In this document: one piece after another, positions 7,589 to 52,800 of the stretch
Layout: every line of letters begins with the position of its first letter
Position numbering within the stretch: position 1 is the first letter of the stretch
Assembly (NCBI GenBank): GCA_903895845.1
Contig: CAITVK010000096.1
Span: 1-64,000, forward strand
DNA length: 64,000 nt
From: an uncultured Chitinophagaceae bacterium
Lineage (GTDB): Bacteria > Bacteroidota > Bacteroidia > Chitinophagales > Chitinophagaceae
Direction of reading: 5' to 3'
Made by a program: the position numbers and the translations under genes
Notes under the pieces: model-generated
Database searches by the model: none
What the model saw: only the letters and a program-made list of their open reading frames with translations
What the model was told of the DNA's origin: nothing

Positions 7589-7600
7589 GGAGAATTGTTT

Positions 7601-23193: not shown

Positions 23194-23280
23194 TTGACAA
23201 TTGATAATTGATATTCGTCTTGTATTTTACCCGTCGTTCATTATCAATTATCAATTTTTAATTATCAATTATAAAAAGTT
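23192..23280. repeat. Inverted pair of 7-nt phased repeats
   Basis: AATTGAC, AATTGAT, AATTGAT (from 23192) and TTATCAA, TTATCAA, TTTTTAA, TTATCAA, TTATAAA (to 23280) both hold a 7-nt register and are largely reverse complements around a ~25-nt loop. They begin at the pheT stop codon and end 11 nt before the next start. Confidence 0.75.
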
Positions 23281-26843: not shown

Positions 26844-27289
26844 TGCCCCCTCCTTGTCATTTGTACGACTATTAGTAACAAGCCTAATAACAGCAAGTTG
26901 TATAACCCAATAAAAGCAACCTACAGTACATTAATTTACCCACCACCCATCTCTTAAATTGTACAAAAAGGTCATTTAAAATAGCAATCCATAAACATAT
27001 AATTCCCTGACACGAATAATATTCAGTTTTTTGTTTGTACGGTAACCGAAGCATAAAAACAGTAACTAGCAGTTGGAAACGTTACCGAAATCAAAACTAA
27101 AACGTTGTAGTATATTTAATAATCAATTACATAGAAATACTTCTCTTTACTACATACTTTCGTAAGAACACAATAAAAAATTAAGGACTGCTTGCTTTTT
27201 GCTATATGATTAAGCTTAAAAAAACGTCTGATTATTTATAAGGGTGATATACCACTCATACACAAAAGCGCTTGCGTAATTGCCATTTT
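26844..27289. other. Upstream region of the first giant T9SS gene
   Basis: No complete gene is seen. 26844-26930 (minus) holds a hydrophobic reading-frame remnant. Two AACGTT centres lie at 27078-27083 and 27101-27106 (separate entry). TACTTTCG at 27155-27162 could be a -7 element, leaving a ~125-nt leader before the ATG at 27290. Confidence 0.45.
27076..27106 (+). promoter_or_regulatory. Candidate LacI-type operators
   Basis: GGAAACGTTACC (27076-27087) is a near-perfect 12-bp palindrome centred on CG, the symmetry expected of LacI-family operators. A second AAACGTTG centre lies 23 nt downstream. A similar palindrome lies upstream of the other giant T9SS gene (59237-59248). Confidence 0.35.
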
Positions 27290-39200: not shown

Positions 39201-40030
39201 TAGCTTCGTTAAAAGGCACAAAACGGTTAGCTATTGCCACTCACGGAGAGGTCTTAACCACAGATACAACCAAATTGTACATTAAGAGTAGTGCTGTTGG
39301 TTCTTTCAAGTTGTCTTTCAGCGATTTCAAGGATTTAGATAATACGCAGTCCATTACACTGATAGATAAGTTCTTGAACACCACACAAGACATGAGAGCA
39401 AATCAGGTATATGCCTTCAATGTAACGAGTGATACTACGAGTATGGGGTACAATCGCTTTGCAGTCGTTGTGGGTGCAGCAAGTACATTGCCAGTCAACT
39501 TTACCAGTATCTCTGCTACCAAGGAAGGAGAAAAGGTCAATGTGAGATGGTCAATTGCCAATGAAGTAAACATTGCCAGTTATGAGGTAGAAAGAAGCAC
39601 CAATGGTACTTCCTTCAGTACTGTCACCAACAAGAAAGCGGTAGGTACAACTAGCTACGCTATCGAAGATGCAAGCATCCCAGCAATAGCTACTACTTTG
39701 TACTACCGCATCAAGGCAATTGGTACAGATGGCACTACCAGGTACAGTGCAATTGCCAAACTCATCACTCATAATTCATCACTCAGCACTATTGCTGTCT
39801 ATCCAAACCCAGTCAAGAGCAAGCTGAACATCAGCTTGGGTGCTGCAAGCGGCAATTACGATGTACGCATCACGTCTGTTGCAGGCAAGGAAGTAATTGG
39901 TAAGTCAGCGGTTACAGTTACGGATGGCAAACTTAGCTTGGATGCCAGCAGCCTAGCAGCAGGTGTCTATGTAGTTGAGTTGACTGACAAAGAGGGCAAT
40001 AAGTACCAAGAGAAGTTCATTAAAGAATAG
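27290..40030 (+). CDS. Giant T9SS-secreted protein with a family 8 polysaccharide lyase domain
   Basis: About 4246 residues from the ATG at 27290 (a TTG 18 nt upstream is less likely). Signal peptide (~1-35), then ~2600 residues of Ser/Thr/Asn/Gly-rich beta-solenoid-like repeats, with tryptophan modules such as FSWTGGGANNNW and WNTATNWGSGTVP. A fibronectin type III domain follows (~2660-2750). Residues ~2760-3495 match polysaccharide lyase family 8 (hyaluronate/chondroitin/xanthan lyases): NNWHYATITYP, DNSFMQHY with a later YGGGWAYD, SARGIYKD, and NWNYVPGVTT. A further WNTA-type module and repeats lead to the C-terminal ~75-residue T9SS type A sorting domain (YPNPVKSKLNISLG to EKFIKE). Likely a cell-surface or released polymer-degrading adhesin. 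Confidence 0.88.
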   Translation: MKKIFTNFACSKSVPTRTWLLVIIFLFFSVSLFATTGTFSWTGGGANNNWSNTSNWSVTSGSGTYPGAGTNDVVQFTNVTATVTVDVTPATLASITFYGSTVQFVGTVATTQTTTSSGIASGNTTVTLSAANASIAANQQVAITSGTGTIPQYASVVTYTSGGPTIALSNAPTASNSAATTLTFYNVAPTITTTNCYFTNNNTVILGGAFTVSTSLDFSNSTGAGSKLYLPNTQYLTVGGLAGMSTTNVFSGSANPQLKFSGSTGTAYFDAAAPSFFGLYVNNSITATLGNSVTTARLSYGTFSKIVLTNSGTILSHTFGGTSTYSGLGIDASASGTGIQFVGTFALPSNYFANTTVNTLTMNKASNYVTLAQNLSVTNLNLTAGLLDNSTNTVTVANGGTIQKGAGNLKVAPMYGTTSSDKINVTYTASVSTGLELQGTTGSVGTVTVNDGVTTTLSNSGINNVTPTTAFPTSSNNYTSPSIIFGAPSTGGVTATGTVITSGSGATRNIVGIIITNPGSGYTSAPTCTISDGTGPTISSFTIGLNSTNPSVTNVTIGSGTSGVLTYPNSTNAVTLNITSGVTVNVGASFNCGTQSGTVTHLLNVGGSITNSGTFNLYNAATGYVDANLNGGNTQTLTGTFTFNNLTISNANANLAASAAITTKAALIVAANFTQPVNSTISSFSLTVNSNKTFTISGTSASSLSTASATNAVFTLSTSNGTVNNNGTITVNGWMTSNITSVSSVYSGSGTITFNNYSVFQQAVSEGTIPTATWNTGSTLYFTGTAGTAPTIPASTYANIIWNCASQSTSTGMVLNPTSISGALVVLNTNTKTLTLSTTSTASTTINVGSITVGSGTGGYSFNGASITTAAATSLVFYSTNTSAPTISVSGDINVQGYNATGTATLSNTNACTLNAQGNFTLAPSNSTFTSTNTTVNFNGTSGTLQTISGTITFAGLTISNTTASVVVGSGGLTIASGNTLTISNSAVLDMASYTLTVSTITTSGSGTLKTQNTSATPITTGKTWSFNVIYNNLTGAQTVMAGTYNGGLTMSNTSGINTASGSLVLANVPLTLNSGSTLDLGASYSISVSNTTGNIGSTGSGTLKTGNINSPTYKLTSGLTWGGTVVYYILGNPRIVPGSYTNLTVDNATSGVTGHAINWGNGVASNETISISGIFSIDNITSFTAYSNNVQFTGSNQSVVSLYGSYPTNNISFYNLDISGATGFTFPSGTTNISNTFIPGTNTSDYATQGTINFNNLTGGQTIPAFTYYSLAFGNTSGTQTASGAIVVKSNLTLPTSTGVFDVSASNYPVSIGGNWVSSVSSSFNAESGTVTFNGTGTQTISGTNTFYNLTDVTGGATLTLTAGTTQTITNILTLTGALGNLLNFKSSTSAVAYITLTNYANTAISYCNITYITNNSTTVNAASSTNGGNNTNIKFNNVWIGGTSGSWNTATNWGSGTVPTSGDDVIFDNSIAGNTSPTVSFTSNPVAGSLTFNNSNVTFTYNATLTAPLTVSGSVTLNGSVVSMGTGTSLTTPSTSVANNGIGLQVGASSIAGTLTLASTNVGSVIYSRLYLCNYQSSTATTNTLYGPVAMDANDYLGEATTGIAPALVYAYAPTTIGSSTFYFDPNLQTPLFKLTSSGAKQTLALGSNLYTSRVVLGSSNLNTASNPAINLNGNILTIGTGTSTYTAGTINANIGQISFDNTIAPSIGYALFTPSTVNSLVDSCAGLTLAFSQPLTITNLYLKTGALDNSTNNITIPIGGNVYAYGGTLNAAPAFAGTANVTVNASCTAGNELQGTGGSVGALNVNTGTYTLASTSSVASVNIANGATLSYPNSGTAITLTVTGDVATNTSGTLTAGTQTSAVLHQLVLGGNVTGSGTLSLTGSGTTKAVDVTFNNASSSTITSGTLSFNSVTLNKSTGITLGGSGSIANNLTLANGTLTVGANTLTLAGVAPSLTSGNIDASNSSATVLFTNTTSITLPAGLFTDNINNFTVNGAGRVVLGEALTISGNLILTTGALDISSSNYAISLGGNLIITGGNLIPRSGTVTLNGSGTQTISSGLTFNSLYVYNGSVVIPALLTASNITIGDGTHTMSLTQPTATLVSVTNAFAVSSSANYTIAAGTGSSVSAGTNNAVLNFNSANGTITNNGTIAINGWFTNGNQNSTTATTLAGSGTWTIGSQGVYNHNTINGTIPTMTSWVAGSTLYYTGTHGANTLAAGTNQSFRKVIYNCPTNPSSANYFNPSAILDTLYIVNSGTATPRTFQIENSVSTVSIGTLIVGTGAGSYYFNGGISSSNPVVVSLGTTTAPTITVARDVTVQGNSSINTATLTTSSGSSILNLGGNLNVGSNAYFTTTNITVNLDGSGTSSTPQTITSSGQTFTALTVSNATYATLANTIAVMGSLTLTSGTLNDGGNTVTVNGSITGAGTHTGSGQLIITGGTATHYIGSSSGTINLGNVQINSSSYILGLAGNAVINGTMTLTAGLFNIYSYNLTLANAPVGYTSSSYIYHYSTGNGTLTINNVGSGSTVFPVGISANYVPITFTGTTNSPNVTVGFGLTLTNAPLNASNIVNVQWSILSSTASSTTPTFQYSSNNQASGYLPTSTIVVGAYSGSAYSENLLGVISGSSPYTVSTTSAIALTTSLASLYAIGNQYSFAPGAPSPSITYLTGGNNQATIGFSAVTNGSSIITNGYSVTPYIGGVAQTTITGINSSPYIVTGLTNGTTYTFKVSATNSVGTGTSALSNSVTIAVPTIYDSILTNRTAAIQLNTPSIATSLISATYGYINGGILSDSTFSSLGEPPTLTSPNKDLYYFNYLSLIQNMAEVYTYNYTYIKNGVNETGYNNPAVLAAIKQTLTWWLQRVPYYTCNNWHYATITYPLNLGNVLVLMRGIGVNVDTTGWGAIEKNAINLVYANPETPNTGLIANGYLSPSTNTGDNRTNISDYWLDWGCLTKNVNSNGWDVVDTAINELYTTMDYTQSLPDGYKQDNSFMQHYAQDYTQQYGGGWAYDILAFGNYLKNTSKAMTQTKLDLMYNYVHNSYYASARGIYKDFNLNGREISIPNNNLVDSTIAEMGALVDPTPSHISDYKTDLANCETSNPNYVGDTIHTHYFVSDYTLHKRPNYNFSVRSVSTRTNMDESLNTQNLLGTFLAQGATSIMVHGNENNNSFANWNWNYVPGVTTSDSLDGSGNSATQQNPNYGQYDTGYTRFVGGVSDGKYGASTLSLSYDHVTGNKSWFFFDSAVVCLGANIQSAKTGMNTVTSVNQQLINGPIYYNNSAGGSYTTFTAPTDANPATVSGTNIYSVFHDSIGYFFPTGNNVTIKQDSVYGDWYNIDNLYISSIPDTTDMFQLSINHGVAPSNGSYQYIVAPGISYSTMQTYNPLNTINILANTKYVQAVKHNGLNMMQVIFDSATSITDPTSGITVKVNQPCALMLSNMNQNPLTVTVSDPTQLLSTLTVTMSYSSNTSQFNLVTETLPSGYFVGSSVSFTVDSTSANSNLWIGATSTSYNTASNWQSGVVPSSGANITIASGATYYPVLNSSAATTLNNLTLTSGSFTVNSTDTLKVRGAINNTSGTVTVNGTVSYSGTTAQTIAANTFASNTVNNISINNTSGVTLAGALYVAGTVYSTSGTLNSNGNLTLLSTSTGTARMDQIAGGIAGDVTVQRYITAKTARKYSYIGSPVTASVRNSWQQQIYVTGAGTGGVPCGTTNGDGGSNDKYNSNGFDVTQNSAASIYKYNATLVNGSRYVGIANTESTNLSPGTGYCVNIRGNRNSNTVNCVNQLESNTPAAPEAVTLSATGPVTTGDLSVTLNNPSVYAFTLLANPYPCQISFSAFQASNSNINNNMWTYSPFGNNNYTTYSNGIIANGASSYDNTSGNYIASGQAFFVQANAPGSVTFHESHKTNGALPGTQYFGTDVNRIIRIGLKDNSETSLLDEIVVRYNSNGSDVYTQGWDASSLSSGSQILASLKGTKRLAIATHGEVLTTDTTKLYIKSSAVGSFKLSFSDFKDLDNTQSITLIDKFLNTTQDMRANQVYAFNVTSDTTSMGYNRFAVVVGAASTLPVNFTSISATKEGEKVNVRWSIANEVNIASYEVERSTNGTSFSTVTNKKAVGTTSYAIEDASIPAIATTLYYRIKAIGTDGTTRYSAIAKLITHNSSLSTIAVYPNPVKSKLNISLGAASGNYDVRITSVAGKEVIGKSAVTVTDGKLSLDASSLAAGVYVVELTDKEGNKYQEKFIKE
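39759..39788 (+). repeat. 7-nt phased repeat inside the giant gene, just before the sorting domain
   Basis: CTCATCA, CTCATAA, TTCATCA, CTCAGCA run in exact 7-nt register and encode the KLITHNSSLSTI linker immediately ahead of the T9SS sorting domain (AVYPNPVKSK). The words closely match the intergenic array at 4588-4619. Confidence 0.75.
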
Positions 40031-40054
40031 TGATTGGTTACGCATTCTGAGTAG

Positions 40055-40075
40055 TACGTTATACGTAATACGTTA
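40055..40075 (+). repeat. Short 7-nt phased repeat after the giant gene
   Basis: TACGTTA, TACGTAA, TACGTTA: three units in 7-nt register, self-complementary around TACGTA, 25 nt after the stop codon. Confidence 0.5.
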
Positions 40076-40088
40076 CAGATTCTAAATA

Positions 40089-40128
40089 AAAAAGTGCAGT
40101 TCTACCTTGTGTGGAACTGCACTTTTTG
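40089..40128 (+). terminator. Terminator after the giant T9SS gene
   Basis: AAAAAGTGCAGTTC (40089-40102) pairs perfectly with GAACTGCACTTTTT (40114-40127) around an 11-nt loop: a 14-bp stem with an A-rich 5' and T-rich 3' edge, so it could work in both directions. Confidence 0.85.
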
Positions 40129-40198
40129 TTTGGGAGTTTATTTTCGAATAATCATGAGAGGGTAATCTCGTTGATTTCTACTCATAATTCAATATTGC

Positions 40199-40633
40199 TT
40201 ATTTATACTTCCGTTTCTTTTCCTCTCTAAATTCAAGTTGTTCTATCAATGATTCTGGCGTTGGATTGTCGGTAATACTCACAGCGGCATAAAACAAAAC
40301 AAGATAAATTACAAGTGATACCGATAGCTCATCCCACAATATCCAATATCCCCAGATACTATAAACGACAGCCTGTTTGGGGTTAGAAGCCTCATATATT
40401 ATCTGCAAAGCTTCCCCTTCCTCCAATTGTCTTAAAGGATAAGCAGCCCTTACTGAATATTTAGTCGTCCCAATAGAAAAGTTAGCAAACGGAATACTTG
40501 CCTGCGTCGCAGAATCTTTTGCATAATGAATTGTTGCATCCGTAACCTCTCCATCAAAATAATCCGGCTGCCTTGCAAAAACTACGAAGCAACCATAAAG
40601 TGCAAAGAATATTACCGTGATGGTTTTATACAT
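40199..40633 (-). CDS. DUF3592-like membrane protein
   Basis: A 144-residue protein with a hydrophobic helix at residues ~3-20 and another at ~103-120 (LSVSLVIYLVLFYAAVSI), enclosing an extracytoplasmic beta-rich segment (GEVTDATIHYA, then KYSVRAAYPL and EGEALQIIYEASNP). The layout, two helices around a small beta domain with a Y-P and NP-containing end, resembles DUF3592. The function of that family is unknown. The tail is strongly charged (REEKKRKYK). Confidence 0.65.
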   Translation of the reverse strand: MYKTITVIFFALYGCFVVFARQPDYFDGEVTDATIHYAKDSATQASIPFANFSIGTTKYSVRAAYPLRQLEEGEALQIIYEASNPKQAVVYSIWGYWILWDELSVSLVIYLVLFYAAVSITDNPTPESLIEQLEFREEKKRKYK

Positions 40634-40660
40634 AGTTTTTAGTTATTGTGCTGATTTACT

Positions 40661-40770
40661 CCAATGTTAGCTGTCTTTTCCTAAAAGCTGACAGATGTTG
40701 AGCATAAGCTGTCAGCTTTCGTCTATTGTTAGCTGACTTTGCTTCAATGTTAGCTGGCTAAGCTGTTATA
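40661..40770. repeat. Degenerate ~21-nt phased AGCTG repeat
   Basis: AGCTG recurs at 40669, 40686, 40707, 40731 and 40752: steps of 17, 21, 24 and 21 nt. Variants include TGTTAGCTG(T/A/G)C and AAGCTGTCAGCT, the last holding local dyad symmetry. It sits between the DUF3592-like gene and the smc stop codon. This is a weaker array than the others. Confidence 0.6.
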
Positions 40771-40793
40771 TCCCCCTTTAGGGTTAGGGGTGC

Positions 40794-43700
40794 TTAATTC
40801 AAACTCCTAAAATCCACCGGCACCAGCTTACTTACCCCAGGTTCCTGCATCGTCACACCATATATTACATCCACAGCACCCATTGTTTGTTTATTATGTG
40901 TAACAATGATGAACTGCGAGTTATCACTAAACTTCTTGATCATCTGTGTGAACTTGCCCACGTTCGCATCATCCAATGGTGCATCCACCTCATCCAGAAT
41001 ACAGAAGGGCGCAGGTTTAATCAGGTAGATCGCAAACAATAGCGCTGTTGCCGTTAAGGTCTTTTCTCCACCACTCAACTGAGTGATAGAGGAAGGACGC
41101 TTGCCTTTTGGCTTCGCAATAATCTCAATACCAGTTTCTGCCAGATTCTCAGGGTTCACTAATATCATATCTGCCGTATCTTCTTCCGTAAACAATGCTT
41201 TAAACACCTTTTGGAAGTTGTCGCGCACCTTATTAAAGGTATCCAAGAAAAGTTGATTAGCCGTAGATTCCACTTCTTGTATTGTTTGCAATAAGCTGTC
41301 TTTCGCACTCACCAAATCATTCTTTTGTTCCAAAATGAAGTCATATCTTTTCTTCATTTCTGTATAAGCTTCAATGGCGGTAGGGTTTATTTCACCCATA
41401 TTCTCAATCCGCTTACGTAATCTATCGCTCGTGCTTTGCAGTTCAGCTAATGGCGTTTCAGTTTCACGAGCTTCTTTCAAGATGGTATCCAAGTCAATTT
41501 TAAACTCTACTTGCAAGCGTTCTTTCATCCCAGCAAGTTGAAGTTTCAATTCGTTCAGCCTGTCTTTTACTTCGTTGAGTGCATTGTCAAGCAACTCTTT
41601 ACTCTTTACTTTTTGCTTTAACGTTGCTTCTTTCCCATTCAATTCATTCCTTAAAGCATAAAATGCTTGATCCGCTTCATTCAGCTTCTTCTCTTCTTCT
41701 TCTTTTGTTCTCAACAAAGTCAGCAACACCGTTTCGCAGGCCGCCAATGCTTGTTCCCCTTCCAATATATTAATGGCTGCATCTCCCAATTGTTTCGTGT
41801 TATCTTCAATCTGCGTATGCAAATCATTCAATTGCTTCTGCTTGAATGTCAGTTCTTGTTGCAAAGCCGTTAGCTTACTTTGCTGTCTTGTCAACTGCAA
41901 ATTGCTTTCATTGTATTGTGCAGATGCCGTCTGATAATCCCTTTCAGCTAGCTTATAATCTCCTTCAACCAATTGTAAATCGGCAGCCGTTTGTTGCAAT
42001 TGTTTGTTCAATGTCAGCAGACTTTCTCTTGTTGCAGCTATCGATTCTTGCTCATCTTCCAAACGCTCTTGCAGGTCTTCCAACCGTTGTTGGGAAGTCG
42101 CTTGTGCCGCCTGTGTATTTTCTATTTTATTCTTGGCAGCAAACACTTGGTTTGTCAACTGACTGATTTCATTCTCTGTCTGCTTGATAGCATTTTCTTT
42201 CAATTGCTGATTAAACACCAACACTTTGTCAGACAACGTTTTTATCTCTGCCTTCAACGATTGCACGATTGTATCTTGCTGCGCAATCTCCTCATTTAGT
42301 TTCTCTAAATTCTTCGCACGACCAATCTTTTTCCCTTCAAATAAGCCAACGCTTCCACCTTTTAGTGTGTATTGACCTTGCACATACTTCCCGCTCTTTT
42401 CTAGTACAATCGTATCTGCCGTTGCACTTTCAAAAGCAGCGTCATCTTCCGCAATAAATACATTACCCAACAAGTATGCTGCAAGCTCTTTATACTGCGC
42501 ATCCACTTCTATCACGTCTAATGCTTTGGTAGAATTGGTTGGCTGATTGATGGATGCATTGGTAGCAACTATCTTATCCAACAAAAAGAAATTCGCCTTT
42601 CCTTTCTTGTTGTTATCCAACAAACGGATAGCTTCCATTCCCTCTGCCAGATTATTCACTACGTAATAATTCAGGTAAGGCTCCAATACATTTTCTACTG
42701 CTGCCCTATACTTCTCATTCACATAAATAATGTCCGATAGGATAGGGGCCGCATTGTTCCAATTGGGGTTTTTATGCAAAAACTTAATACTCTCCGGATA
42801 ACCTTCCATTGAATCTACCAAGCTTTTCAACAAAGCATATTCATTGCGTTTGCTGTCTAGTTTTCTGTTTTCATCAGCTAGTTTACTGCGCAAGCCTTCT
42901 AAATCCTGCTGAGAATTAAAGATGTTTTGCTTCGCCGATTCGTGTGCTTCTTGTAACTCAGCCAATTCACTGCGCTTCTCCGTCAATAGCTCTTCCTTTT
43001 CTACCAATTCAGCTTCCAATTGCTTTAGGATATAACTCCTGTTTTGCTGTTCATCCTGTAACTGCGTAGTTGAACGTTGTATGTTATTGATGGAAGTATC
43101 TGCAATTGCTACTTTCTTTTCTGCATCAAACTGATTACGTTGAATGCTTTGATATTGACTACGCAAAGCATCCAATCCAGTTCTTTTGTCATCAAATATT
43201 TCGCGCTTCTCATCAACAGATTGCTTGGCTGCGGCTACTTCCAGTTGTAAGTTCTGCAACTCAGTTGTTTGCTCGCCCACTTGTCTTTGCGTATATTGAA
43301 TGCTGTCTGCCAGATTCTTCAACTGACCTTCTGCCTTCGACAAAAAGTCTTTCAATCCACCTTCTTTTTCTTTCAGGTATTTTAGTTTCTGAACAGCAAG
43401 GTTCTTTTCATTCTCTTTCGACTTCAACGTCTGTTGAAAATTATTAAACGCCACTTGCTTATCGTGTAGTTCTTTTTCTTTCTCAATCAAACCTACCTTT
43501 TCTTGTTCCAAAGCTGCTTCCTCTGTTGCAATTTCTGCATCCAGACGCGCCTTTTTATCCATTTCCGACTCTTGCTGCTCGTTCAATTCTTTGTACGTGA
43601 TATTGAATCCTTCCAACGCAGCCTTGGCAAGTTCTACGGCAACCGCTTTATACTCTTTCTTAACCTCAATATACTTCTCTGCTTTCTTTGCCTGACCTTC

Positions 43701-44315
43701 CAATATCTTCAACTGGTTGCTGATTTCAAACAACAAATCTTCTATCCTCGCCAAGTCAAGTTCGGTCGCATCCAGTTTGTTTTTCGCTTCTTTCTTTCTT
43801 GTTTTATAAATCGTAATACCAGCCGCTTGTTCCAACATCCTGCGACGGCTATTTTCTTTGTCACGGATAATATCGTCCACCATCCCCAATTCGATGATAG
43901 CATAGCTGTCGGTACTAATACCGGTATCCAGAAATAAGTTGTGAATATCTTTTAGGCGGCAGGTAACATCGTTCAGTTTGTATTCGCTCTCTCCATTTTT
44001 AAAGAAACGACGGGTAACGGTAATCGTACTGAATTCGGTGGGAAGCAGGTTGCGGGTGTTTTCGAAAGTAAGGCTCACTTCGGCAAGACCACTGGCACTA
44101 CGGCTTTTAGAGCCATTGAACACCAATGCACTTTGGTTTTCGCTGCGCAATGCGCTGATTTTCTGTTCGCCAATCACCCAGCGGATACTATCAATGATAT
44201 TGCTTTTGCCACAGCCATTAGGCCCGATAATACCCGTGATACCTTCATCAAAACTCAACACTGTCTTATCAGCAAAGCTCTTGAATCCCTTAATTTCTAA
44301 ACTTTTTAACCGCAT
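40794..44315 (-). CDS. smc: Chromosome segregation protein SMC
   Basis: SMC forms the ring-shaped condensin complex with ScpA/ScpB. The 1173-residue length is normal. N-terminal ATPase half with Walker A GPNGCGKSNIIDSIRW (~residues 32-47), long coiled coil (~170-500), hinge (~510-670), second coiled coil (~680-1010), and C-terminal half with signature TQLSGGEKTLTATALLFA and Walker B FCILDEVDAPLDD. A TATGTTCG -7-like element lies upstream (44350-44357 on its strand). scpA/scpB are not adjacent. Confidence 0.97.
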   Translation of the reverse strand: MRLKSLEIKGFKSFADKTVLSFDEGITGIIGPNGCGKSNIIDSIRWVIGEQKISALRSENQSALVFNGSKSRSASGLAEVSLTFENTRNLLPTEFSTITVTRRFFKNGESEYKLNDVTCRLKDIHNLFLDTGISTDSYAIIELGMVDDIIRDKENSRRRMLEQAAGITIYKTRKKEAKNKLDATELDLARIEDLLFEISNQLKILEGQAKKAEKYIEVKKEYKAVAVELAKAALEGFNITYKELNEQQESEMDKKARLDAEIATEEAALEQEKVGLIEKEKELHDKQVAFNNFQQTLKSKENEKNLAVQKLKYLKEKEGGLKDFLSKAEGQLKNLADSIQYTQRQVGEQTTELQNLQLEVAAAKQSVDEKREIFDDKRTGLDALRSQYQSIQRNQFDAEKKVAIADTSINNIQRSTTQLQDEQQNRSYILKQLEAELVEKEELLTEKRSELAELQEAHESAKQNIFNSQQDLEGLRSKLADENRKLDSKRNEYALLKSLVDSMEGYPESIKFLHKNPNWNNAAPILSDIIYVNEKYRAAVENVLEPYLNYYVVNNLAEGMEAIRLLDNNKKGKANFFLLDKIVATNASINQPTNSTKALDVIEVDAQYKELAAYLLGNVFIAEDDAAFESATADTIVLEKSGKYVQGQYTLKGGSVGLFEGKKIGRAKNLEKLNEEIAQQDTIVQSLKAEIKTLSDKVLVFNQQLKENAIKQTENEISQLTNQVFAAKNKIENTQAAQATSQQRLEDLQERLEDEQESIAATRESLLTLNKQLQQTAADLQLVEGDYKLAERDYQTASAQYNESNLQLTRQQSKLTALQQELTFKQKQLNDLHTQIEDNTKQLGDAAINILEGEQALAACETVLLTLLRTKEEEEKKLNEADQAFYALRNELNGKEATLKQKVKSKELLDNALNEVKDRLNELKLQLAGMKERLQVEFKIDLDTILKEARETETPLAELQSTSDRLRKRIENMGEINPTAIEAYTEMKKRYDFILEQKNDLVSAKDSLLQTIQEVESTANQLFLDTFNKVRDNFQKVFKALFTEEDTADMILVNPENLAETGIEIIAKPKGKRPSSITQLSGGEKTLTATALLFAIYLIKPAPFCILDEVDAPLDDANVGKFTQMIKKFSDNSQFIIVTHNKQTMGAVDVIYGVTMQEPGVSKLVPVDFRSLN

Positions 44316-44461
44316 AATCTTCCAGTTTAACCCGAATTAGTTGGGTTTGCGAACATACATCACAAATAAACAATAGAAACACGATAAAGAAGGGTGTGGA
44401 GAAATAGTGGGAAACGTAGGGGGAGTGTTATTTTGTTATACTTTTACTTAAAAGCAAATAA

Positions 44462-44719
44462 ATGACAATTATAAATTCATTAAAAAAACATTTTGACAAT
44501 AAAAAGAATGTAGAAAATGCTGATGAACTTTCAGTGAGTATGCAAAATGAAATTATTCGCTTAGCAGAAGATAAGCTACAAAAGCCACTCTCGAATGAAA
44601 TTAAAAGCAATATTTGTAATCGAGGATGGGGTTATATGGGACTTGAAGGGATTATTGATTATGTGAAATATCTTGACGGAGAGGAGCTTGAAAACTATTT
44701 ACAAAACTTAAATGAATGA
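44462..44719 (+). CDS. Small soluble protein of unknown function
   Basis: An 85-residue, mostly helical and charged protein beginning at ATG 44462, with a central SNICNRGWGYMGLEGIIDYV segment. It has no signal or membrane segment and no family I recognise. It lies 45 nt before a small membrane-protein gene on the same strand, divergent from smc. The codon use and AT richness look like the accessory small genes of this window. Confidence 0.55.
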   Translation: MTIINSLKKHFDNKKNVENADELSVSMQNEIIRLAEDKLQKPLSNEIKSNICNRGWGYMGLEGIIDYVKYLDGEELENYLQNLNE

Positions 44720-44763
44720 CGTAAATCTGTTAGTTATTGTATTAATTATTTTCAATCATACTG

Positions 44764-44973
44764 ATGCTACATCTTTTTTTAAAACTTATTCTCGTTATAA
44801 TCTCACTTACTCTTATCAACCTTTTTATTGCTAGGCAGGTATATATTTATCAAGTCAAGAAAAATAAGTATAACGCTAAATTATGGGCTATCAACACCTT
44901 TATTGTAATTTTCATACTTGGATTAATAATGGCGATTTGGTTTCTTTTATCTAACATCCCAGGTATTTGTTAA
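44764..44973 (+). CDS. Small two-helix membrane protein
   Basis: A 69-residue protein starting at ATG 44764 with two hydrophobic helices (LFLKLILVIISLTLINLFIA at ~4-23 and a second at ~43-64), joined by a basic loop (YQVKKNKYNAKLW). The family is not recognised. It could form a unit with the 85-residue gene 45 nt upstream. Confidence 0.55.
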   Translation: MLHLFLKLILVIISLTLINLFIARQVYIYQVKKNKYNAKLWAINTFIVIFILGLIMAIWFLLSNIPGIC

Positions 44974-45003
44974 TGATTTATATGAATAAACGAATACCCT
45001 CTC

Positions 45004-45075
45004 AAGCAAGTATTCCGATAGCATCACTTGTGTGTGTATTAGTTAAACCAGTTTCTAACTGAAATTCTAGTTGCT
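45004..45075. repeat. Imperfect direct repeat, copy 1
   Basis: Shares CAAGTAT, TCACTTGT and AACTGAAATTCTA in the same order with 45353-45423 (roughly 70% identity with small gaps). The two copies lie ~349 nt apart and flank the 50-residue gene on the minus strand. Confidence 0.6.
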
Positions 45076-45105
45076 AAGACCAAAAATTGTTTTGGTTTAT
45101 AAACT

Positions 45106-45258
45106 CTAGGAGGAACGTTGTTTCTTGTTCTTTTGTGTACTCAGTTTCTTTAATTTTTCCACTTGTTTTTTTGCAGCTACTAAGGAAACGGGCGGCTGTT
45201 TGGATACTATTTCCATACCTAGTTTCGCCATTTCCTGAAATGATATGTTGTAGTTCAT
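45106..45258 (-). CDS. Tiny basic protein (50 residues)
   Basis: On the minus strand, ATG at 45258 to TAG at 45106-45108 encodes 50 residues: an amphipathic start (MNYNISFQEMAKLGMEIV), a VSKQPPVSLVAAKK middle and a very basic tail (KKLSTQKNKKQRSS). The amino-acid make-up is protein-like and the frame is not explained by repeats. The strongly basic end suggests nucleic-acid or membrane contact, but no family is recognised. It lies between two imperfect direct repeats. Confidence 0.5.
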   Translation of the reverse strand: MNYNISFQEMAKLGMEIVSKQPPVSLVAAKKQVEKLKKLSTQKNKKQRSS

Positions 45259-45604
45259 ATTTAATAGTATTGACGATAATATAAATTTTTAATTATCAAA
45301 CCCTGTGTGGGACAAATATAGCAAAGTAATCAGTTTAAAAGGAGTCCACTCCCACAAGTATTGCTTCAGTGTCACTTGTCTCTACTGGTCAACCCATTTT
45401 CCAACTGAAATTCTATTTATTGATGCCATTCTATTACAATGAATATGTATTGATAAAAGGAAAATGCAAAACGAAAAAAGTCACTTCCTCTCTTTTTCTT
45501 TCTGAGTTACTAACAAGCTTTCCTAGTTGTGTAGTTTTTTATTGTGATAACGTTCATGACTATCTTACTTTGTTCGGAAACCAATCGAGAATATGGTTAG
45601 AAAG
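45259..45604. other. Non-coding stretch containing direct repeat copy 2
   Basis: No convincing gene. Copy 2 of the imperfect direct repeat is at 45353-45423. A plus-strand open frame at 45369-45638 starts inside that repeat and runs into the 21-nt array, and its composition is not convincing. Confidence 0.45.
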
Positions 45605-45815
45605 CCAGAAAAGCGAGTTTTTCTTTAAAGGAATATAGTTTTTCTTAGAAAGAAAAGTTAGAAACTAACAAAGAATGGAAGTTTTATTAGAAAGAATCAG
45701 AGGAAACTAATAAAGAAAATAAGCTTTCTCTTGTGGAATTAGTTTTTCTTTAAAAGAAAAACAAGAAACTAACAAAGAAACATTGGAAACTAACAAAGAA
45801 AAACTGCAAAAACCT
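45605..45815. repeat. 21-nt phased A-rich array with inverted halves
   Basis: AGTTTTTCTT(T/A) occurs at 45616 and 45637 (step 21) and 45741. GAAACTAA(C/T)AAAGAA occurs at 45661, 45703 (step 42), 45765 and 45786 (step 21), with a degenerate unit at 45682. The two words are partly reverse-complementary (AAAGAAAAACT), so the array reads as an inverted pair. GTTAGAAACTAAC is a small palindrome in it. Confidence 0.7.
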
Positions 45816-46034
45816 AGGTTTAATGTCGAAGTTTAGCATGGTTCTGTCATGCCTCGCGGTTACTAACCGGAATCTTATTAAGGCTGCCACTAATCGCTCT
45901 TCCACCATCAGTCTTTCATCAACATCACTTCAGCATACCAGCCTTACCAATAAAACATCCCATTTCTCCATCCATTTTAGAACTTTACCCTATACTTTTG
46001 TTATTAGTTGGTAGGCTTATTTAATTGATTGAAA
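45816..46034. other. Short non-coding gap before the exonuclease gene
   Basis: Nothing specific is seen. An open frame at 45823-46014 is Ser/Thr-rich and lacks family or start support. Confidence 0.4.
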
Positions 46035-47360
46035 ATGTTTGCAATTGTTGATATAGAAACAACAGGAGGACATGCTGGTGCCAATAATATTACCGAAATT
46101 GCCATCGTGCTGCACAATGGGCAGGAAGTGGAAGGTAAGTTTTCGACATTGGTGAACCCTGGCATGCCTATCCAGAAATATGTGCAGGCACTTACGGGTA
46201 TAACAGATTCTATGGTGGCATCTGCCCCCATATTTGAACACCTGGCACCTAACATTTATAACCTGCTGAAAGACCGGATATTTATTGCCCACAACGTTAA
46301 CTTCGACTATAGTTTTGTAAAACATGAACTGGCTGCTGCGGGATTTGAATTAACTACTCAAAAGCTTTGTACCATCCGCCTGGCAAAGAAGATATTTCCT
46401 AACCTTCCCAAATATGGATTGGGTACTGTGTGCAGGGAATTGAATATTACAATAACAGACAGGCATCGTGCTACCGGAGACGCCTTGGCAACTGCTGAAC
46501 TATTTGGCTTATTGGTGAAACACGATAATAGTGGTGAACTGGAGAAAATGATGAAGAAAAAGGCTAATCGCTACCTTCCCCCTCACGTGAACATTGAAGA
46601 AGTGGAGAACCTGCCTACCGTGCCTGGCATCTATTACTTTAAAAACAAAGCTGGCAAAGTGGTGTATGTGGGCAAGGCAAAGAACATTAAGAAAAGGGTA
46701 ATCTCTCATTTCTCCAACAACAAACCAAGCAAACAAAAGCAGGATTTTTTGCGGGAGATTCACCAGATAAGTCATACCGTTTGTGATAGTGAACTTATAG
46801 CTTCGGTATTGGAAAGTATTGAGATAAAACGCCTTTGGCCTGCATTCAACAAGAGTCAAAAGCATTATGAGCATCAATATGGGATTTTTATGTTTGAAGA
46901 TGCGATGGGCTATATCCGTTTGGGTGTGGACAAGAAAAGAAAGTTGCTGCAACCGTTACTTTCATTCAGTTTGTTGGCAGAAGCAAACAGTACCTTGTGG
47001 CAGTGGGTGCGGGAACATCATCTTCACCCAGCCTTGTGCTTTCTGGATAAAACGAATAAAACGCTGGACGGATTGCCGACGGTAGCGGAACACAATGCCA
47101 TAATCAATGAGATAATACAATCGGCAAAAGAAGAAAAGAAGACTTTTGTGATAAAGGAAACAGGGAATCATTATATACTGGTAGAAGATGGTCGCTTTTA
47201 TGGAATGGGCAAGATAGACCACGAGCTATTTGTTGCCCAACCACAACAACTGAAAAAGATGCTTTCCCCTTATCCAGAAAATGAAGTAATTAGAAGTATG
47301 ATTAAAACTTACACGGCACGATACCCTATGCGGGTAATTTATCTGAACAATAATGCCTGA
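46035..47360 (+). CDS. DnaQ-like 3'-5' exonuclease fused to a UvrC-type GIY-YIG domain
   Basis: A 441-residue cytoplasmic protein (ATG 46035; a TTG 6 nt upstream is possible). Residues ~1-165 are a DEDDh exonuclease: IVDIETTGG (Exo I), HNVNFDYSFVKHEL (Exo II) and HRATGDALATAELF (Exo III). Residues ~195-280 are a GIY-YIG domain: VPGIYYFKNKAGKVVYVGKA followed by KNIKKRVISHF, with a later ELIASVLESIEIK helix like the N-terminal part of UvrC. This fusion is known as the exonuclease/Cho-like repair protein of Bacteroidota, probably acting in nucleotide excision repair or DNA end clean-up. Confidence 0.9.
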   Translation: MFAIVDIETTGGHAGANNITEIAIVLHNGQEVEGKFSTLVNPGMPIQKYVQALTGITDSMVASAPIFEHLAPNIYNLLKDRIFIAHNVNFDYSFVKHELAAAGFELTTQKLCTIRLAKKIFPNLPKYGLGTVCRELNITITDRHRATGDALATAELFGLLVKHDNSGELEKMMKKKANRYLPPHVNIEEVENLPTVPGIYYFKNKAGKVVYVGKAKNIKKRVISHFSNNKPSKQKQDFLREIHQISHTVCDSELIASVLESIEIKRLWPAFNKSQKHYEHQYGIFMFEDAMGYIRLGVDKKRKLLQPLLSFSLLAEANSTLWQWVREHHLHPALCFLDKTNKTLDGLPTVAEHNAIINEIIQSAKEEKKTFVIKETGNHYILVEDGRFYGMGKIDHELFVAQPQQLKKMLSPYPENEVIRSMIKTYTARYPMRVIYLNNNA

Positions 47361-48563
47361 TTAAAACCCATTAATTCCAGTAACATTGGTTGTAATTACG
47401 TTGGTCCCGTTTTTGGCAGGCAGTTTATTGATAACTACATTCTTGAAGGTTACCCCATTGGCATAACTCATAGTCATCCCTTTTTTGGCAGTAATATTGA
47501 CGTTTGTAAATACAATATTCTGAATAATACTGTTGGCCAATCCATTGATGATTCCTGCGTTTGCAGAACCAGTTGCCGTAAGGTTATTGATGAAAAAGTT
47601 GGCAACTGCCGGTATCTTTGGAGGGGTAGTAACTACATTCTGGTAATCGAAAGTTGAATAAATAGGATTAGTTACATTTGTCATAGTTATGTTGGAGTAA
47701 TAGACATTATAAACCAACCCACCCTCTCCTGGCCCAGATTTTATCCGGATGCCGCTTGTAGTTCCGTTGAAAGTACAACCATCAACTTTCAAATTACAAT
47801 AACCTCCATAAGTTTGACTACCAATTGAGAGCCCATGCCCAATACCAAAAAAACAATTTTGAACAGTAATGTCTTGGGTCTGATACGCATTAACAATGCC
47901 ACTGGCTTTAATAGCTATATTATCGTCTCCATCACTGATGGAGCAATTTGTTATTAATACATTCACACAATCTGAGGGGTCAATTCCGTCGGTATTTTTT
48001 GCTAAAGCATCCAATGTATTAATGGTTACATGGTCTATAACAACATTTGTACTATTATTTGGAACTATATGGAAAGTTGGTGAATTTTGAAGTGTCAAAC
48101 TATCTATAGTAAGGTTAGTTACATTGGATAAAGTTATCAATCTTGGCCTGCTCAAGCTACTATTAGCAGCAAATGCTACCCACCAAGGTTTTCCGCTTCC
48201 ATCAATAGTACCACCACCTGTGAGTCTTACATTTGTAAGTGTGCCAGAATTAGTAATTAAGTCTTTCAGCTTATTCCCAACAAACCAGTCAGTCATAATT
48301 GGGCTTCCTAATAGGATTGCACCGCTATCAATCCTAAGTGTAATGTTACTTTTCATACTAATTGATGCAGTTCTATAAGTGCCAACAGTAAGCCTTACCG
48401 TTCCACCACCTGTTGAATTGCAGTAATCAATTGCCCCCTGGATATTTGCAGTTTGAAGGGTGGTATCTCCTGCAAGAATTGTAAGCGTAGAATCGTTGGC
48501 AATAATCTTGCTTGTACATAAAACCCCCATTAAAACCAAAAGATAAAAGAAGCGTTTTTTCAT
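47361..48563 (-). CDS. Glycoside hydrolase family 28 protein (polygalacturonase-like)
   Basis: GH28 enzymes cut galacturonan and related pectic chains by inverting hydrolysis in a right-handed beta-helix. The 400-residue protein has a signal peptide (~1-22) and all family motifs: NTDGIDP (~190), DGDDNIAIKA (~212), GHGLSIGS (~245) and RIKSGPG (~277). The catalytic Asp residues and the His are present, so it should be active. No T9SS or lipobox is seen, suggesting periplasmic location. It fits the polysaccharide theme of the two giant proteins and the lyase-like protein. Confidence 0.9.
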   Translation of the reverse strand: MKKRFFYLLVLMGVLCTSKIIANDSTLTILAGDTTLQTANIQGAIDYCNSTGGGTVRLTVGTYRTASISMKSNITLRIDSGAILLGSPIMTDWFVGNKLKDLITNSGTLTNVRLTGGGTIDGSGKPWWVAFAANSSLSRPRLITLSNVTNLTIDSLTLQNSPTFHIVPNNSTNVVIDHVTINTLDALAKNTDGIDPSDCVNVLITNCSISDGDDNIAIKASGIVNAYQTQDITVQNCFFGIGHGLSIGSQTYGGYCNLKVDGCTFNGTTSGIRIKSGPGEGGLVYNVYYSNITMTNVTNPIYSTFDYQNVVTTPPKIPAVANFFINNLTATGSANAGIINGLANSIIQNIVFTNVNITAKKGMTMSYANGVTFKNVVINKLPAKNGTNVITTNVTGINGF

Positions 48564-48802
48564 TAATCAAATAATTGAGACTACACTAAGGATGAATGAT
48601 AAGCCAAAGGAAATTATACCTAGAAGCAATAAGCCGCAAGTATAGAAGAAGGATTGAACAAACAGTTTAACTCCTTATTTATTCTACTTTAAACCGCGCA
48701 AAGAAGATGCTTCGGAAAGTATGTTCTATCATGAGACACCTTCTATTGGAAAGGTAATCTTTACAGAGATTTAAAGTTACCACATGAGGATACTAAACCT
48801 TC

Positions 48803-49057
48803 CTACTCAACGATAGTACGTTTATTTTTCATCCTCTTTGCCGCATAGCCAATACCACTGGCAGCTAGTATCAGACTCATGCCACCATCAAAGGGAACCA
48901 CAGGCCCGCCATCGCCACCAACGCCTTCACTGGGACTACCTGGTCCGCCAATGCCCGGATCATCTGCCGGAGACTGTGCCTTGGAGATGGTTGTTACACA
49001 AATACTTACCAGAAGGATAAAACCAAGCGTGCGGAGTGCCTTAACTGTTTGTTGCAT
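48803..49057 (-). CDS. Small exported PID-CTERM-like protein
   Basis: An 84-residue protein: signal peptide to SKAQS (~28), a Gly/Pro/Asp-rich mature stretch (PGIGGPGSPSEGVGGDGG), then VPFDGGMSLILAASGIGYAA and a basic end KRMKNKR. A short P-x-DGG motif, one hydrophobic helix and a basic tail is the arrangement of the PID-CTERM protein-sorting tail of Bacteroidota, thought to be processed by an exosortase-like enzyme. Here PFDGG replaces PIDGG. The mature part would be only about 25-30 residues long. No exosortase gene is in the window. Confidence 0.65.
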   Translation of the reverse strand: MQQTVKALRTLGFILLVSICVTTISKAQSPADDPGIGGPGSPSEGVGGDGGPVVPFDGGMSLILAASGIGYAAKRMKNKRTIVE

Positions 49058-49202
49058 ACTATTTTGTATTAAAAGTGTTTATTGATTGATTGACTAACCA
49101 CTGTTATTCATCCAAAAGCAATTCTTTTCTTTATTCTTTATTGATGAATGAATCTATTTTTTATTGATTGAAAGAACCATTGCCCAACCCCGAAATGTAT
49201 TT

Positions 49203-49748
49203 GTACCAATACCGATGCGCCCGACACAGAAAATCTTCGAATTCATGTAGTCGGTTAGATGACTGACACAGCGAATCTTCGAATTTGTACAGTCGGCCAG
49301 ATGACCGACACAGCAAATCTTTAAATTCATGTAGTCAGTTAGATGACCGACATAAAAAATCTTCGAACTCATGTAGTCGGTTAGATGACCGACACAGCGA
49401 ATCTTCAAATTTATGTAGTCAGTTAAATGACCGACACGGCAAATTTTTGTATTTGCCCTAGCACAAGAACTCGTGACACAGCAAATCTTCGAATTTGCCC
49501 TAGCACAAGAACTCGTGTTACAGCAAATCTTCGAATTTGCCCTAGCACGAGAACTCGTGACACAGCAAATCTTCTAATTCGCCCTGACACGAGAACTCGT
49601 GACACAGCAAATCTTCGAATTCGCCATAGCACGAGAACTCGTGTTACAGCAAATCTTCGAATTCACCCTGACACAAGAACTCGTGTTACAGCAAATCTTC
49701 GAATTCGCCCTAGCACGAGAACTCGTGTTATAGCAAATCTTTTTCCTC
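49203..49748. repeat. 26-unit modular 21-nt array with alternating and swapped half units
   Basis: Contiguous 21-nt units alternate X-Y-X-Y. X (13 copies) is based on ACAGCAAATCTTCGAATT. Y exists in two unrelated types: Y1 based on GTAGTCGGTTAGATGACCG (six copies, 49203-49433, the first degenerate) and Y2 based on CTAGCACGAGAACTCGTG (seven copies, 49455-49727). Y1 contains GTCGGT/ACCGAC and Y2 contains CACGAG/CTCGTG inverted repeats. The X unit stays the same across the switch at 49434-49455. No translation signal is seen for the open frames created by the period. Confidence 0.93.
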
Positions 49749-49849
49749 GTCCTTCCGATCACTCAAATAACTTCTAAAATTCATCTAAAAACCAAGGACA
49801 CCGTTATCATATATCCATCAACACCGATAATCATTTCAATTATCAATTA
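49749..49849. repeat. Gap with a 7-nt phased repeat at the end of the second giant gene
   Basis: At about 49831-49868 the words TCAATTA, TCAATTA, CTAATTT, TCAACTA, TCAAGCT hold a 7-nt register and run across the stop codon of the giant gene on the minus strand (stop at 49850-49852). The rest of the gap shows nothing. Confidence 0.6.
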
Positions 49850-52800
49850 CTAATTTTCAACTATCAAGCTACTTTGATGAACCACTTGCTTGCTGTTTGC
49901 TTCGCTGATGCTCACATTGTACACTCCCGCAGCCAATGCGCTATTGATGCTGATGGCGTGTGTTGCACTTCCACCCGTATGACTGATTGTTTGTGCAATC
50001 ACCCTTTGTCCCAACGCATTGTAGATGCTGACCGTGTATTTTCCTGCAACCACATTATCCAAAGACATATTAAGGGTCTTGCCTGTTAGTGGGTTAGGAT
50101 ACAAGGCATAAGTCGTAAGTCTTAAGTCATAAGTCACTTTAGCAACGTTGCTGTAAGAGATGCTACCTGCCGAGCTTATTGCCTTGATGCGGTAGTAAGT
50201 AGTTGTGGTTACACTGTTGTCAGTTGAAGTATAACTGGCAGTTGCCGTATTTTTAGCAGTAACCTGACCGATTGCTGTGAAGCTCTTGGCATCGGTAGAT
50301 TTCTCTACTTCATAAGAAGCTACATTCTTCTCCCCTACTGTGTTCCAGGTGATGGTTGCTGTCTTATTGCTCAGGCTTGCATTGGCAACGATACTATTTA
50401 CTGGCAATGCACTTGGTGCAAACAGGATAGTGAATCGGTTGCTGAAACTAGCAGCCTTCGCTGTATCAACAGTGAAATCTACTGTGGAAGTTCCTGTGCC
50501 CAATGCCTTGGTAGTATTCTTGAAAGCATCATACAACAATGGTTCGAACCCGTTATTGGCATAGGCAGAAGCATCAATACTCAAGCGATAAGCTGTTGCA
50601 GTAGGATTAGAAATCTTCAGTGCAATGGCGTCACTTGCAGTCGCAGGCAATCTTCCATCAATACTTAAATTCTTGCCTTTATCGCTGATTGCTAAATTAT
50701 CCGTAGTACTACTGAACTTGATGGCATCTTGAGGACCATAGGCTTTGTTGCCAAAGTCTGACCTGAAGGCTACTGCTGCCCCATCTACCATATCGTAAGT
50801 TGTTGCACCAGTAGTTTGTTTTAACAAGCTTACATAAATCTTACTCAACTGAGCAGCACCAAAGACAGAAGTCTTAGTAGTAGAAGCCACTTTAGCATTC
50901 TCTTTGAATAACACTTGTGGGTTTGAACCAATTGTCTGAACAAATACGGCTTGTCCAGCTTGAATATTACCCAATACAGTTGTCGTGCCGTAAGTCTTAT
51001 TACCGCCACCTACAGTATCATAAGTAGTTGCAGACGGGATAGTTGCAGTACCAGTTAAAGCATTATAGGCCAAGTATCTGCCTGTTGCTCCGTAAGTAGG
51101 ATCCAAGTACCAATAACTGCCATTAATGTTTGAGGTTGCAGCACCACCTGATGTTGAATAAACAGAGCTCCATTGTACAGGACATACATAAGGATTAGCT
51201 ACTAAACTAAAGCCTCCTACTGTAGTATTCAAGCCAACTGTATTATCGCCTCCTGTGACTGTATTTGTTACACCACCATTTGCAAGCGTTCTGTAAGTGA
51301 CATCACCAGTTACTAACTGACCAGTTGCACGAAGCGTAGTGGCATTGAACATAGCCAAACCAGACTGTGTGTTAGTGACAGGTGACGTATACAAATTAGC
51401 ACTTCTGTCGCCACGAATCAACAACCTATAGCCTGTGAATGGATTAAGGTTAGTGCTCGTAGTATTAGTTAATGCTTTAAAATGGCCATAGATAGGAATA
51501 GGGTTCGTATACAAAGGATCATAGGTATAATCTTGTGTATTTAAACCAGCAATAGCTGCATAATCAAAGCCATTAGCATCTAACTTACCAGCATTAGTAG
51601 CATCCGCAGTATTTGAACCTGTTATAAAGATACCATAACCTGGTTTTGGATTAGAATTTACATTTGTTGCACCCTCCTGCCAGTTTGCATTGATAGTACC
51701 TGCACCATACACTTCAGGAGCCATATCGCGATAACCACGGAAGCCCTTAGGGATGTAACGCTCAACGGTTACATTGCCACTGATTGCCCCCTTGTTTGTA
51801 ACACCATCTATTGCGGCGAGGGTACCTGTATTAGCAAGACTGATTGACTTCAAAGTAACATTACCATTGGTGGTCAATGTGCCATTTTGCAAGTTCAACA
51901 ATCCTGTTATACCCAAACTGTTACCAGCACCAGTTGTCACAGTTGCACCATTGCTATTGTTCAGTGTAAAGTTGCCTATAATACCATTTCCGCTGACAGT
52001 TTGGGCAGCAGTACCAGACAGGATGATTGTTCCTGCACCAGAGACAGTTCCATTGTTAGTAAAGCCATATAATACATTTAGATTAGCGCTATTGGCAACA
52101 GTTGCACCAGAAGCGATGCTTAAAGCAGGAATTGTTGTTGCGGAGGTGATGCTAACGTTAGCACCACTGTTTACGCTGATTACTGTATTAGCTAATGTAG
52201 TTGCAAAAGTTCCAGAATTTGTAAATGTTTGTACACCGCTTCCTTTGAAAACGATTGCATTACTATCTGTTGCAGGTGTATTGGTTGTGATAGTGCCCGC
52301 ATTGTTGAAGCTGCCACCAAGTAGATTAATCACACATGAAGAAGCACCAGCACCCTTGTTTAAATAGAAAGAGCTACCAGAAGTCATGGAGAAATTACCA
52401 CCCAGGTTGTAGATAGCATATCCTTTGTTGGTGCTACCATTTGTATATACTTGTGAATTACCACTGATACTAAAGTTGCCTCCTATGCTAATGGTGTTTG
52501 AAGCAGCAGCCGCCATTCCAAGGAATCTAAGGACATTAGACCCTGTACTACTAATGGTTAGATTACCATTGATAGTCGTGTTTCCGAATATCGGTCCAGC
52601 AGGAACTGATTGTGAAGGACAGTTCCAAGTAACATTATAGAATGTTGAACCTGAAAAAGTAGGTGACGTAGTAGAGATTGCATTTAGCAATAATGTACTT
52701 CCAGTACCCCAAGTAGCGAAAGGAATTGTTCCTCCATTGATATTATGTTCATACGTACTTCCTGCGCCAGTAACATTTAAGACACCAGTAACAGTGTTGT

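Follow-up and report, generated by a model that had tools for sequence, protein, structure and literature searches.

Heptamer repeat arrays at the hinge before type IX sorting domains in a genus of Chitinophagaceae

Introduction

Why should the DNA that codes for the short linker in front of a secretion signal look like the repeats that lie between genes? The question is raised by a 64,000-nucleotide (nt) stretch of an uncultured Chitinophagaceae genome (GenBank assembly GCA_903895845.1, contig CAITVK010000096.1, positions 1 to 64,000; hereafter the window), in which two giant genes for cargo proteins of the type IX secretion system (T9SS) each carry a tandem run of about four 7-nt units (a heptamer array) at the hinge before YPNP, where the C-terminal sorting domain begins. 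The source genome (G000) comprises 4.01 Mb in 138 contigs, and the window corresponds to contig C96:1-64000. A first-pass annotation of the window, made from the sequence alone, had suggested that such arrays could have served as recombination sites in the joining of sorting domains to new cargo, or could be scars of that event; here, we examine where the arrays occur, how the hinges vary among relatives, and which explanation accounts best for both.

Hinge arrays in the two giant proteins and their relatives

The window features concerned are the following (aa, amino acids):
27272..40030, + strand: gene for a 4252-aa T9SS cargo protein, with polysaccharide lyase family 8 domains at residues 2849-3467
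39760..39790, + strand: heptamer array, unit ACTCATC, 4.4 copies (Tandem Repeats Finder), coding for the hinge LITHNSSLST before YPNP
39797..40027, + strand: T9SS type A sorting domain (TIGR04183 / PF18962) of the 4252-aa protein
49850..59176, - strand: gene for a 3108-aa T9SS cargo protein, its Pfam match limited to the sorting domain
49886..50104, - strand: T9SS type A sorting domain of the 3108-aa protein
50103..50136, - strand: heptamer array, unit ACTTATG on the coding strand (AAGTCAT on the + strand), 4.9 copies (Tandem Repeats Finder)

Both arrays are in frame and immediately 5' of the YPNP codons (KLITHNSSLSTIAVYPNP; KVTYDLRLTTYALYPNP), and they code for KLITHNSSLSTIAV-YPNP and KVTYDLRLTTYAL-YPNP, the second of the two supplying the hinge VTYDLRLTTYA of the 3108-aa protein. 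Tandem Repeats Finder thus places roughly four heptamers at the same boundary in both genes, within a few bases of where the first-pass annotation had seen them. The two proteins are T9SS type A cargo, with a C-terminal Por_Secre_tail domain above the curated cut-off (TIGR04183 scores of 51.6 and 41.2 bits; cut-off 23) and a match to PF18962. The same annotation had called them unrelated, and this does not hold: the giant proteins are homologous, their last ~720 residues aligning with 30.9% identity over 808 columns, and the last ~180 residues are 41% identical.

Sorting-domain matches to TIGR04183 number 89 in G000, and 87 of the boundaries were completely readable from 75 nt upstream to 15 nt downstream of the domain start, the span over which a lag-7 segment score was computed. 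A score of at least 9 was reached at 12 of these 87 boundaries, and at none of them for each of the control lags 4, 5, 8, 10, 11, and 13; codon shuffling of the same 90 nt yielded a mean of 0.05 boundaries per round, and a maximum of 2 in 300 rounds. The coincidence had been judged unlikely by chance, and these figures bear that out. The scan of all T9SS genes that had been proposed as a check gave a divided answer, in that the periodicity is confined to a minority of boundaries, most lacking it, yet lies far beyond chance. All 12 arrays fall between 38 nt before and 2 nt after the domain start, and in array-bearing hinges only lags 7, 14, and 21 are prominent. Their units are diverse: TTATCAA, ACTTACG, ACTTATG, ACGTACA, ACTCATC and variants, CACTCAC, ACAACTG, and CGGTTAA.

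The 183-residue end of the 3108-aa protein, comprising the last beta-sandwich (the stalk), the hinge, and the sorting domain, belongs to a large paralogue family in the genus, with 12-134 matches per genome in the 12 genus relatives searched, and 0-10 in each of seven genomes that belong to the order but not to the family. Seventy of these loci were scored, of which two without the motif were dropped; a lag-7 score of at least 9 was found in 32 of the 68 readable loci (control lags, 0 of 68), which after subtraction of the two from G000 itself leaves 30 of 66 in relatives, a proportion that is not a genus-wide rate because the loci were chosen for their resemblance to a query that itself has an array. 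Hinge arrays are genuine and recur within one genus.

A shared repertoire with intergenic arrays

Array density was determined in a 1.20-Mb sample of G000 picked around T9SS genes and known arrays, with open reading frames (ORFs) called mechanically, longest first. Period-7 arrays occur there at ~1080/Mb in intergenic DNA vs. 39/Mb in coding DNA, and the six control lags at 47-80/Mb and 6-17/Mb, respectively; thus, in the sample as at the hinges, the 7-nt period is specifically in excess over other periods, as in heptameric simple sequence repeats (SSRs). The pattern ACTCATNACTCAT was found at 112 places in the genome vs. 4 for the reversed pattern. The intergenic arrays (n = 162; mean length 33 nt) are built from many units, 43 in canonical form, led by AACTCAT (58 arrays), AACTTAT (14), AATTATC (11), and AAGTCGT (8). 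They sit at a median of 13 nt from a stop codon, and their density is 0.25/kb between divergent genes vs. 1.4-1.55/kb elsewhere, so that they share the mainly intergenic, near-gene-end placement of bacterial heptameric SSR arrays. Where neighboring arrays in the sample have an identical unit, they form inverted pairs (15 inverted, 0 direct), as at window positions 7599-7668.

Units AATTATC, AAGTCGT, and AAGTCAT are common to hinges and intergenic arrays, and the hinge unit ACTCATC is one base away from AACTCAT, the commonest intergenic unit. The resemblance to intergenic arrays that had been remarked on in the window is therefore upheld, the hinge units being part of the intergenic heptamer repertoire of the genome. 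The opposite strand would hold stop codons in 10 of the 12 hinge arrays; in four (C96:49886, C116, C79, and C11) the array's own unit includes a stop, and mismatches remove the in-frame stop there.

Constant hinge length and permissive sequence

Measured from YS to YPNP wherever both could be located, the hinge spans 16-19 aa with an array and 14-20 aa without one. A structure model of the C-terminus of the 3108-aa protein, built from a two-sequence alignment, contains two beta domains (mean predicted local distance difference test score, pLDDT, 77; predicted template modeling score, pTM, 0.50), and the array-coded hinge is its least certain stretch, with pLDDT < 50 at residues 94-98. In Porphyromonas gingivalis RgpB, the linker at the same place is described as disordered; its lengthening by insertion resulted in soluble, non-glycosylated protein, and residue substitution gave a wild-type phenotype (PMC4804311). 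It seems that the length of the hinge matters, and its sequence hardly at all. One candidate explanation, that all hinges are decayed arrays, was rejected: 70 hinges without an array show no residual lag-7 periodicity, and thus not every hinge had an array stage.

Block replacement of hinges among paralogues

Flanks were compared for 65 family members, with outlying loci left out, 61 of which have both flanks long enough. Three pairs of close paralogues illustrate the pattern, with percentages referring to DNA identity in the first:
C79 and C120 (G000): stalk DNA 93%, sorting-domain DNA 95% identical; hinges differ, ACAACTG vs. TTATCAA
C56 and C43: stalk 92%, sorting domain 94% identical; hinges AACGTAC vs. 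ACCGNTN-like
L161 and L127 (G006): stalk 95%, sorting domain 90% identical; hinges AATTACC vs. ACTTTCG

In 14 pairs the flanks are at least 84% identical; eight of these have hinges with an identity of 0.82 or more, six have 0.55 or less, and none is intermediate. The existence of two separate classes indicates that gradual drift is not the cause. A flank neighbor at 75% identity or above exists for 46 of the 61 members, and the hinge is held in common in 24, unlike in 18, and intermediate in four. For 12 of the 18 members with a discordant hinge, that hinge recurs at least 85% intact on another member. Although these are draft assemblies, it is unlikely that mosaic hinges arose from assembly error. 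Judging from these alignments, hinges are replaced as whole blocks among paralogues, and the exchange would most simply proceed by short gene-conversion tracts, which are the probable route.

Arrays in enzymes and at the end of coaE

Inside ORFs of the G000 sample, 41 arrays were scored, 12 of them at T9SS boundaries. Several of the others lie at dubious ORF starts or in low-complexity sequence, and the clear ones are in real enzymes. Loci outside the T9SS genes are as follows:
G000 C102:34681, C102:37048-37111, C105:4637, C47:34813, and C47:35549: arrays in Formyl_trans, ABC_tran, HSP70, and Aminotran_3 proteins
G000 C109:31637 and loci L205-L214: BioD-like loop, with repeat DNA that differs by species
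Window 4587..4618, + strand: AACTCAT-family array containing the stop codon of coaE (4006-4602; PF01121)

In-frame arrays are thus found in proteins matching Formyl_trans, Aminotran_3, AAA_26, HSP70, and ABC_tran, which gives the arrays an in-frame presence in unrelated conserved genes, as is characteristic of Rickettsia palindromic elements. We take the Formyl_trans protein to be Fmt, the Aminotran_3 protein to be BioA-like, and the AAA_26 protein to be BioD-like. The array in Fmt falls in the interval that separates its two Pfam domains (residues 183 and 234), and this inter-domain stretch measures 46 residues in four genomes of other families and 49-72 in six members of the genus (10 of 16 loci were readable with the anchors used). 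The array slot in BioA spans 36-76 residues in five members with an array scoring at least 9, 48 in two with a weak array, and 33-38 in three without. The BioD slot holds ACTCATC arrays in G000 and G002, two successive arrays with unlike units in G010, an extensive AACCGTT/AACGGTT block that varies by 21-nt copies in G004 and G006, a different repeat in G001 and G003, and no array in G005 and G007.

The C-terminus of coaE had been said to run into a repeat, and the array at 4587-4618 does contain the coaE stop codon. At this gene end the unit is AACTCAT in G000 and G001 and of AACCACT types in G003, G004, and G009, and the array is weak or absent in G002, G006, and G007. The T9SS hinge behaves as one permissive place among several, only more often used.

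Some details of these slots may be added. The ABC_tran array has inverted arms, one repeat variant in the BioD-like loop codes for SPYPPLGD, and at the coaE end of G003 and G004 both inverted arms carry one unit, unlike that of G000.

Interpretation and alternatives

The account that we favor, and consider fairly probable, is that permissive stretches of proteins are filled through a heptamer-array process common to the genus, and that T9SS paralogues exchange the resulting hinges, probably via short gene-conversion tracts. The hinge between stalk and sorting domain would be constrained in length and nearly free in sequence. A genus-wide process at the DNA level would make arrays of ~30 nt, each with some four 7-nt units, throughout the chromosome and chiefly a short way 3' of genes; those that are free of stops, or have been rid of in-frame stops by point changes, may become established in coding segments that tolerate them, the T9SS hinge being the most frequently used of such segments among those seen. 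Large T9SS paralogue families would then swap hinges as blocks between conserved flanks, such that a hinge acquires another unit with no change to its length, the stalk, or the sorting domain. We infer both gene conversion as the carrier and relaxed sequence constraint as the reason.

Several observations weigh against this account. The absence of residual lag-7 periodicity from the 70 array-free hinges is one, and another is that arrays are denser at hinges (12 in 87 x 90 nt) than in intergenic DNA (~1 per kb), an excess not predicted by relaxed constraint alone. Permissiveness alone is also insufficient to explain the distribution: in other genera of the same family, none of 24 boundaries (one or two best-scoring domains per genome) reaches a score of even 7, a contrast that is modest by itself, since arrays are present at only 4 of the 24 best-scoring domains of G000. 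Moreover, G023, from another family of the order, is rich in AACTCAT arrays (296 AACTCATAACTCAT matches), and none of its 30 best-scoring boundaries reaches 9 and one reaches 7. Gene conversion was not directly seen. For C79/C120, the best case, no donor with matching flanks was found, the other clear TTATCAA hinge (C124) belonging to a different stalk family.

A tentative alternative, possible if not likely, is that a dedicated process of the genus writes or moves ~30-nt arrays of changing unit, which land in hinges, loops, and gene ends. If so, linkers of homologous proteins would be rewritten as blocks with their surroundings unchanged, and the arrays would represent a mobile or mutable repeat of a novel, protein-coding kind, for which T9SS hinges are the principal target within coding DNA.

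It is less likely that the arrays arise in place, with polymerase slippage or template switching writing a 7-nt unit into unconstrained DNA independently in each paralogue. Such writing would fit the very different units found at one position, the different units by species at orthologous coaE ends, and the BioD slots, which hold different or two successive units by species and 21-nt copies that differ between G004 and G006. However, in the 12 cases given above a hinge type reappears almost unaltered on members whose flanks are less alike, and in different species, which points to exchange, and writing at constant length and frame within a 36-nt coding window would need many silent intermediates.

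That the arrays are recombination sites or scars through which sorting domains were joined to new cargo, as the first-pass annotation proposed, is in our view quite unlikely as a general cause, although their position exactly at the domain boundary, their intergenic likeness, and one swap at that boundary all accord with it. The swap involves C109:21148-21339 and C97:6130-6324, the sorting domains of which are 91% identical in amino acids and nearly identical in DNA, with unrelated stalks and DNA similarity that begins at the YPNP codons; by this comparison it is a recent sorting-domain exchange between unrelated stalks, and sorting domains can evidently be exchanged in the source genome. A C96-family stalk (63%) combined with a different domain (34%) at C67:49138 points the same way, and coaE is an example of a gene end that runs into an array. 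Nevertheless, the two hinges at the C109/C97 swap score low at lag 7 (7.5 and 8) and show no match to one another, and completely different arrays are flanked on both sides by 90-95% identical sequence. Between the near half of the stalk and the far half of the domain, distances correlate at 0.63, similar to the 0.67 between stalk halves (for the hinge-adjacent domain half the values are lower, 0.40 against the near half of the stalk and 0.46 against the rest of the domain), and the correlation kept across the hinge indicates that stalk and sorting domain are co-inherited. Arrays are, furthermore, present in unrelated enzymes without a sorting domain. Nor do they bracket the domain: any array within 200 nt after the stop is found in only one of the 12 genes, with a different unit, and an array at the gene end is found in 5 of 89 T9SS genes vs. 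101 of 696 ORFs.

Two specific forms of the proposal were rejected. A recombination cassette bounded by arrays calls for matching arrays on both sides of the domain, and the single downstream array has another unit. The hinge is likewise not singled out as a general recombination junction, since swap-like triples are about as frequent between the domain halves (33 of 61) as across the hinge (29 of 61), compared with 1 of 61 inside the stalk.

Bacteria are known to possess phase-variable repeats, and 7 is not a multiple of 3, so that the gain or loss of one unit would shift the frame and remove the sorting domain. A switch of this kind, as discussed for bacterial repeats in PMC4679880, is nevertheless highly improbable here, given only about four imperfect units per array, a constant length of 16-19 aa in array-bearing hinges, and a stop inside the domain in 0 of 89 matches. 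An origin in chance, in codon bias, or in selection acting on a repetitive peptide, to which the richness of the hinges in T, S, N, L, and Y might point, can be set aside almost entirely, given the codon shuffles, the prominence of lags 7, 14, and 21 only, where peptide selection would raise multiples of 3, and the variation of units and peptides among members.

Comparison with known repeats

TAACTGA heptamer arrays have been described from Beggiatoaceae, Cyanobacteria, and some Bacteroidetes (MacGregor, 2015; PMC4679880), and GGGNATC repeats from Xanthomonas and Nostoc (Rehm, 2015; PMC4692102). As far as those accounts go, the arrays here resemble them in being tandem 7-nt units in few copies, mainly intergenic with a minority inside ORFs, and often over or just behind stop codons. 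They differ in the many units per genome, in the variation of the unit at homologous positions of paralogues and orthologues, and in the repeated use of one protein position, the T9SS hinge; the ORF repeats described by MacGregor (2015) are mostly at protein ends (PMC4679880). The arrays also depart from the TAACTGA type as described, with its one favored unit and rare related heptamers, since 43 units are spread over 162 arrays and the commonest accounts for 58.

Rickettsia palindromic elements are, according to a review, repeat DNA held in frame within unrelated conserved genes (Ogata et al., 2000, 2002, via PMC10969869). The arrays are like these elements, as there portrayed, in their in-frame insertion in unrelated genes and in the inverted arms of some. 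In contrast to that conserved ~150-bp palindromic family, they are ~30 nt long (mean 33 nt), composed of 7-nt units of many sequences, with only some inverted pairs, and they do not lengthen the T9SS hinge. The linker before the C-terminal domain of RgpB is similar to the hinge in being disordered, in lying between an Ig-like domain and the sorting domain, and in depending on length over sequence; unlike for the array-coded hinges, repeat DNA is unmentioned where that report treats the linker (PMC4804311). No report of heptamer arrays at the T9SS hinge was found in the open-access literature, a search in which subscription journals were mostly outside coverage.

Bacterial heptamer arrays have so far been regarded mostly as intergenic curiosities; here, a defined protein segment appears to have been rewritten repeatedly. 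The conserved flanks serve as an internal control, and near-identical paralogues with different arrays are before-and-after pairs, which makes the origin of the arrays testable. Dozens of different hinge sequences, nearly uniform in length and carried by a common scaffold, amount to a natural experiment on the T9SS linker. The arrays also account for odd peptides such as SIINYQL and LITHNSSL upstream of sorting domains, which need not be protein-level signals and call for caution in annotation.

Further repeats in the window and in other genomes

Other arrays in the window are the following:
40051..40073, strand not assigned: weak heptamer array 3' of the stop of the 4252-aa gene, with a unit that is not that of the hinge
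7599..7627, strand not assigned: intergenic array, left arm of an inverted pair
7643..7668, strand not assigned: intergenic array, right arm of the same pair
23240..23275, + strand: small ORF with a TTATCAA-family array at its 5' end, probably upstream of the true start

Broad pattern searches gave little. Two copies of TTATCAA plus YPNP matched one record among GTDB contigs, a set from which near genomes may be excluded, and an ACTTACN pattern matched none of 396 genomes of the order, a result of little weight because the pattern misses the source genome too. In G408, from another genus of the same family, the reversed control pattern TACTCAATACTCAA has 19 matches, and it seems that this genus has heptamer arrays of its own unit. 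In the window itself, a heptamer-like array (AAAGAGT on the coding strand) lies at 41594-41619 within a gene for an SMC protein (40794-44315), where it codes for KQKVKSKEL, and longer tandem arrays of 42-nt and 21-nt units occupy positions 49221-49741, 20176-20527, and 1-210.

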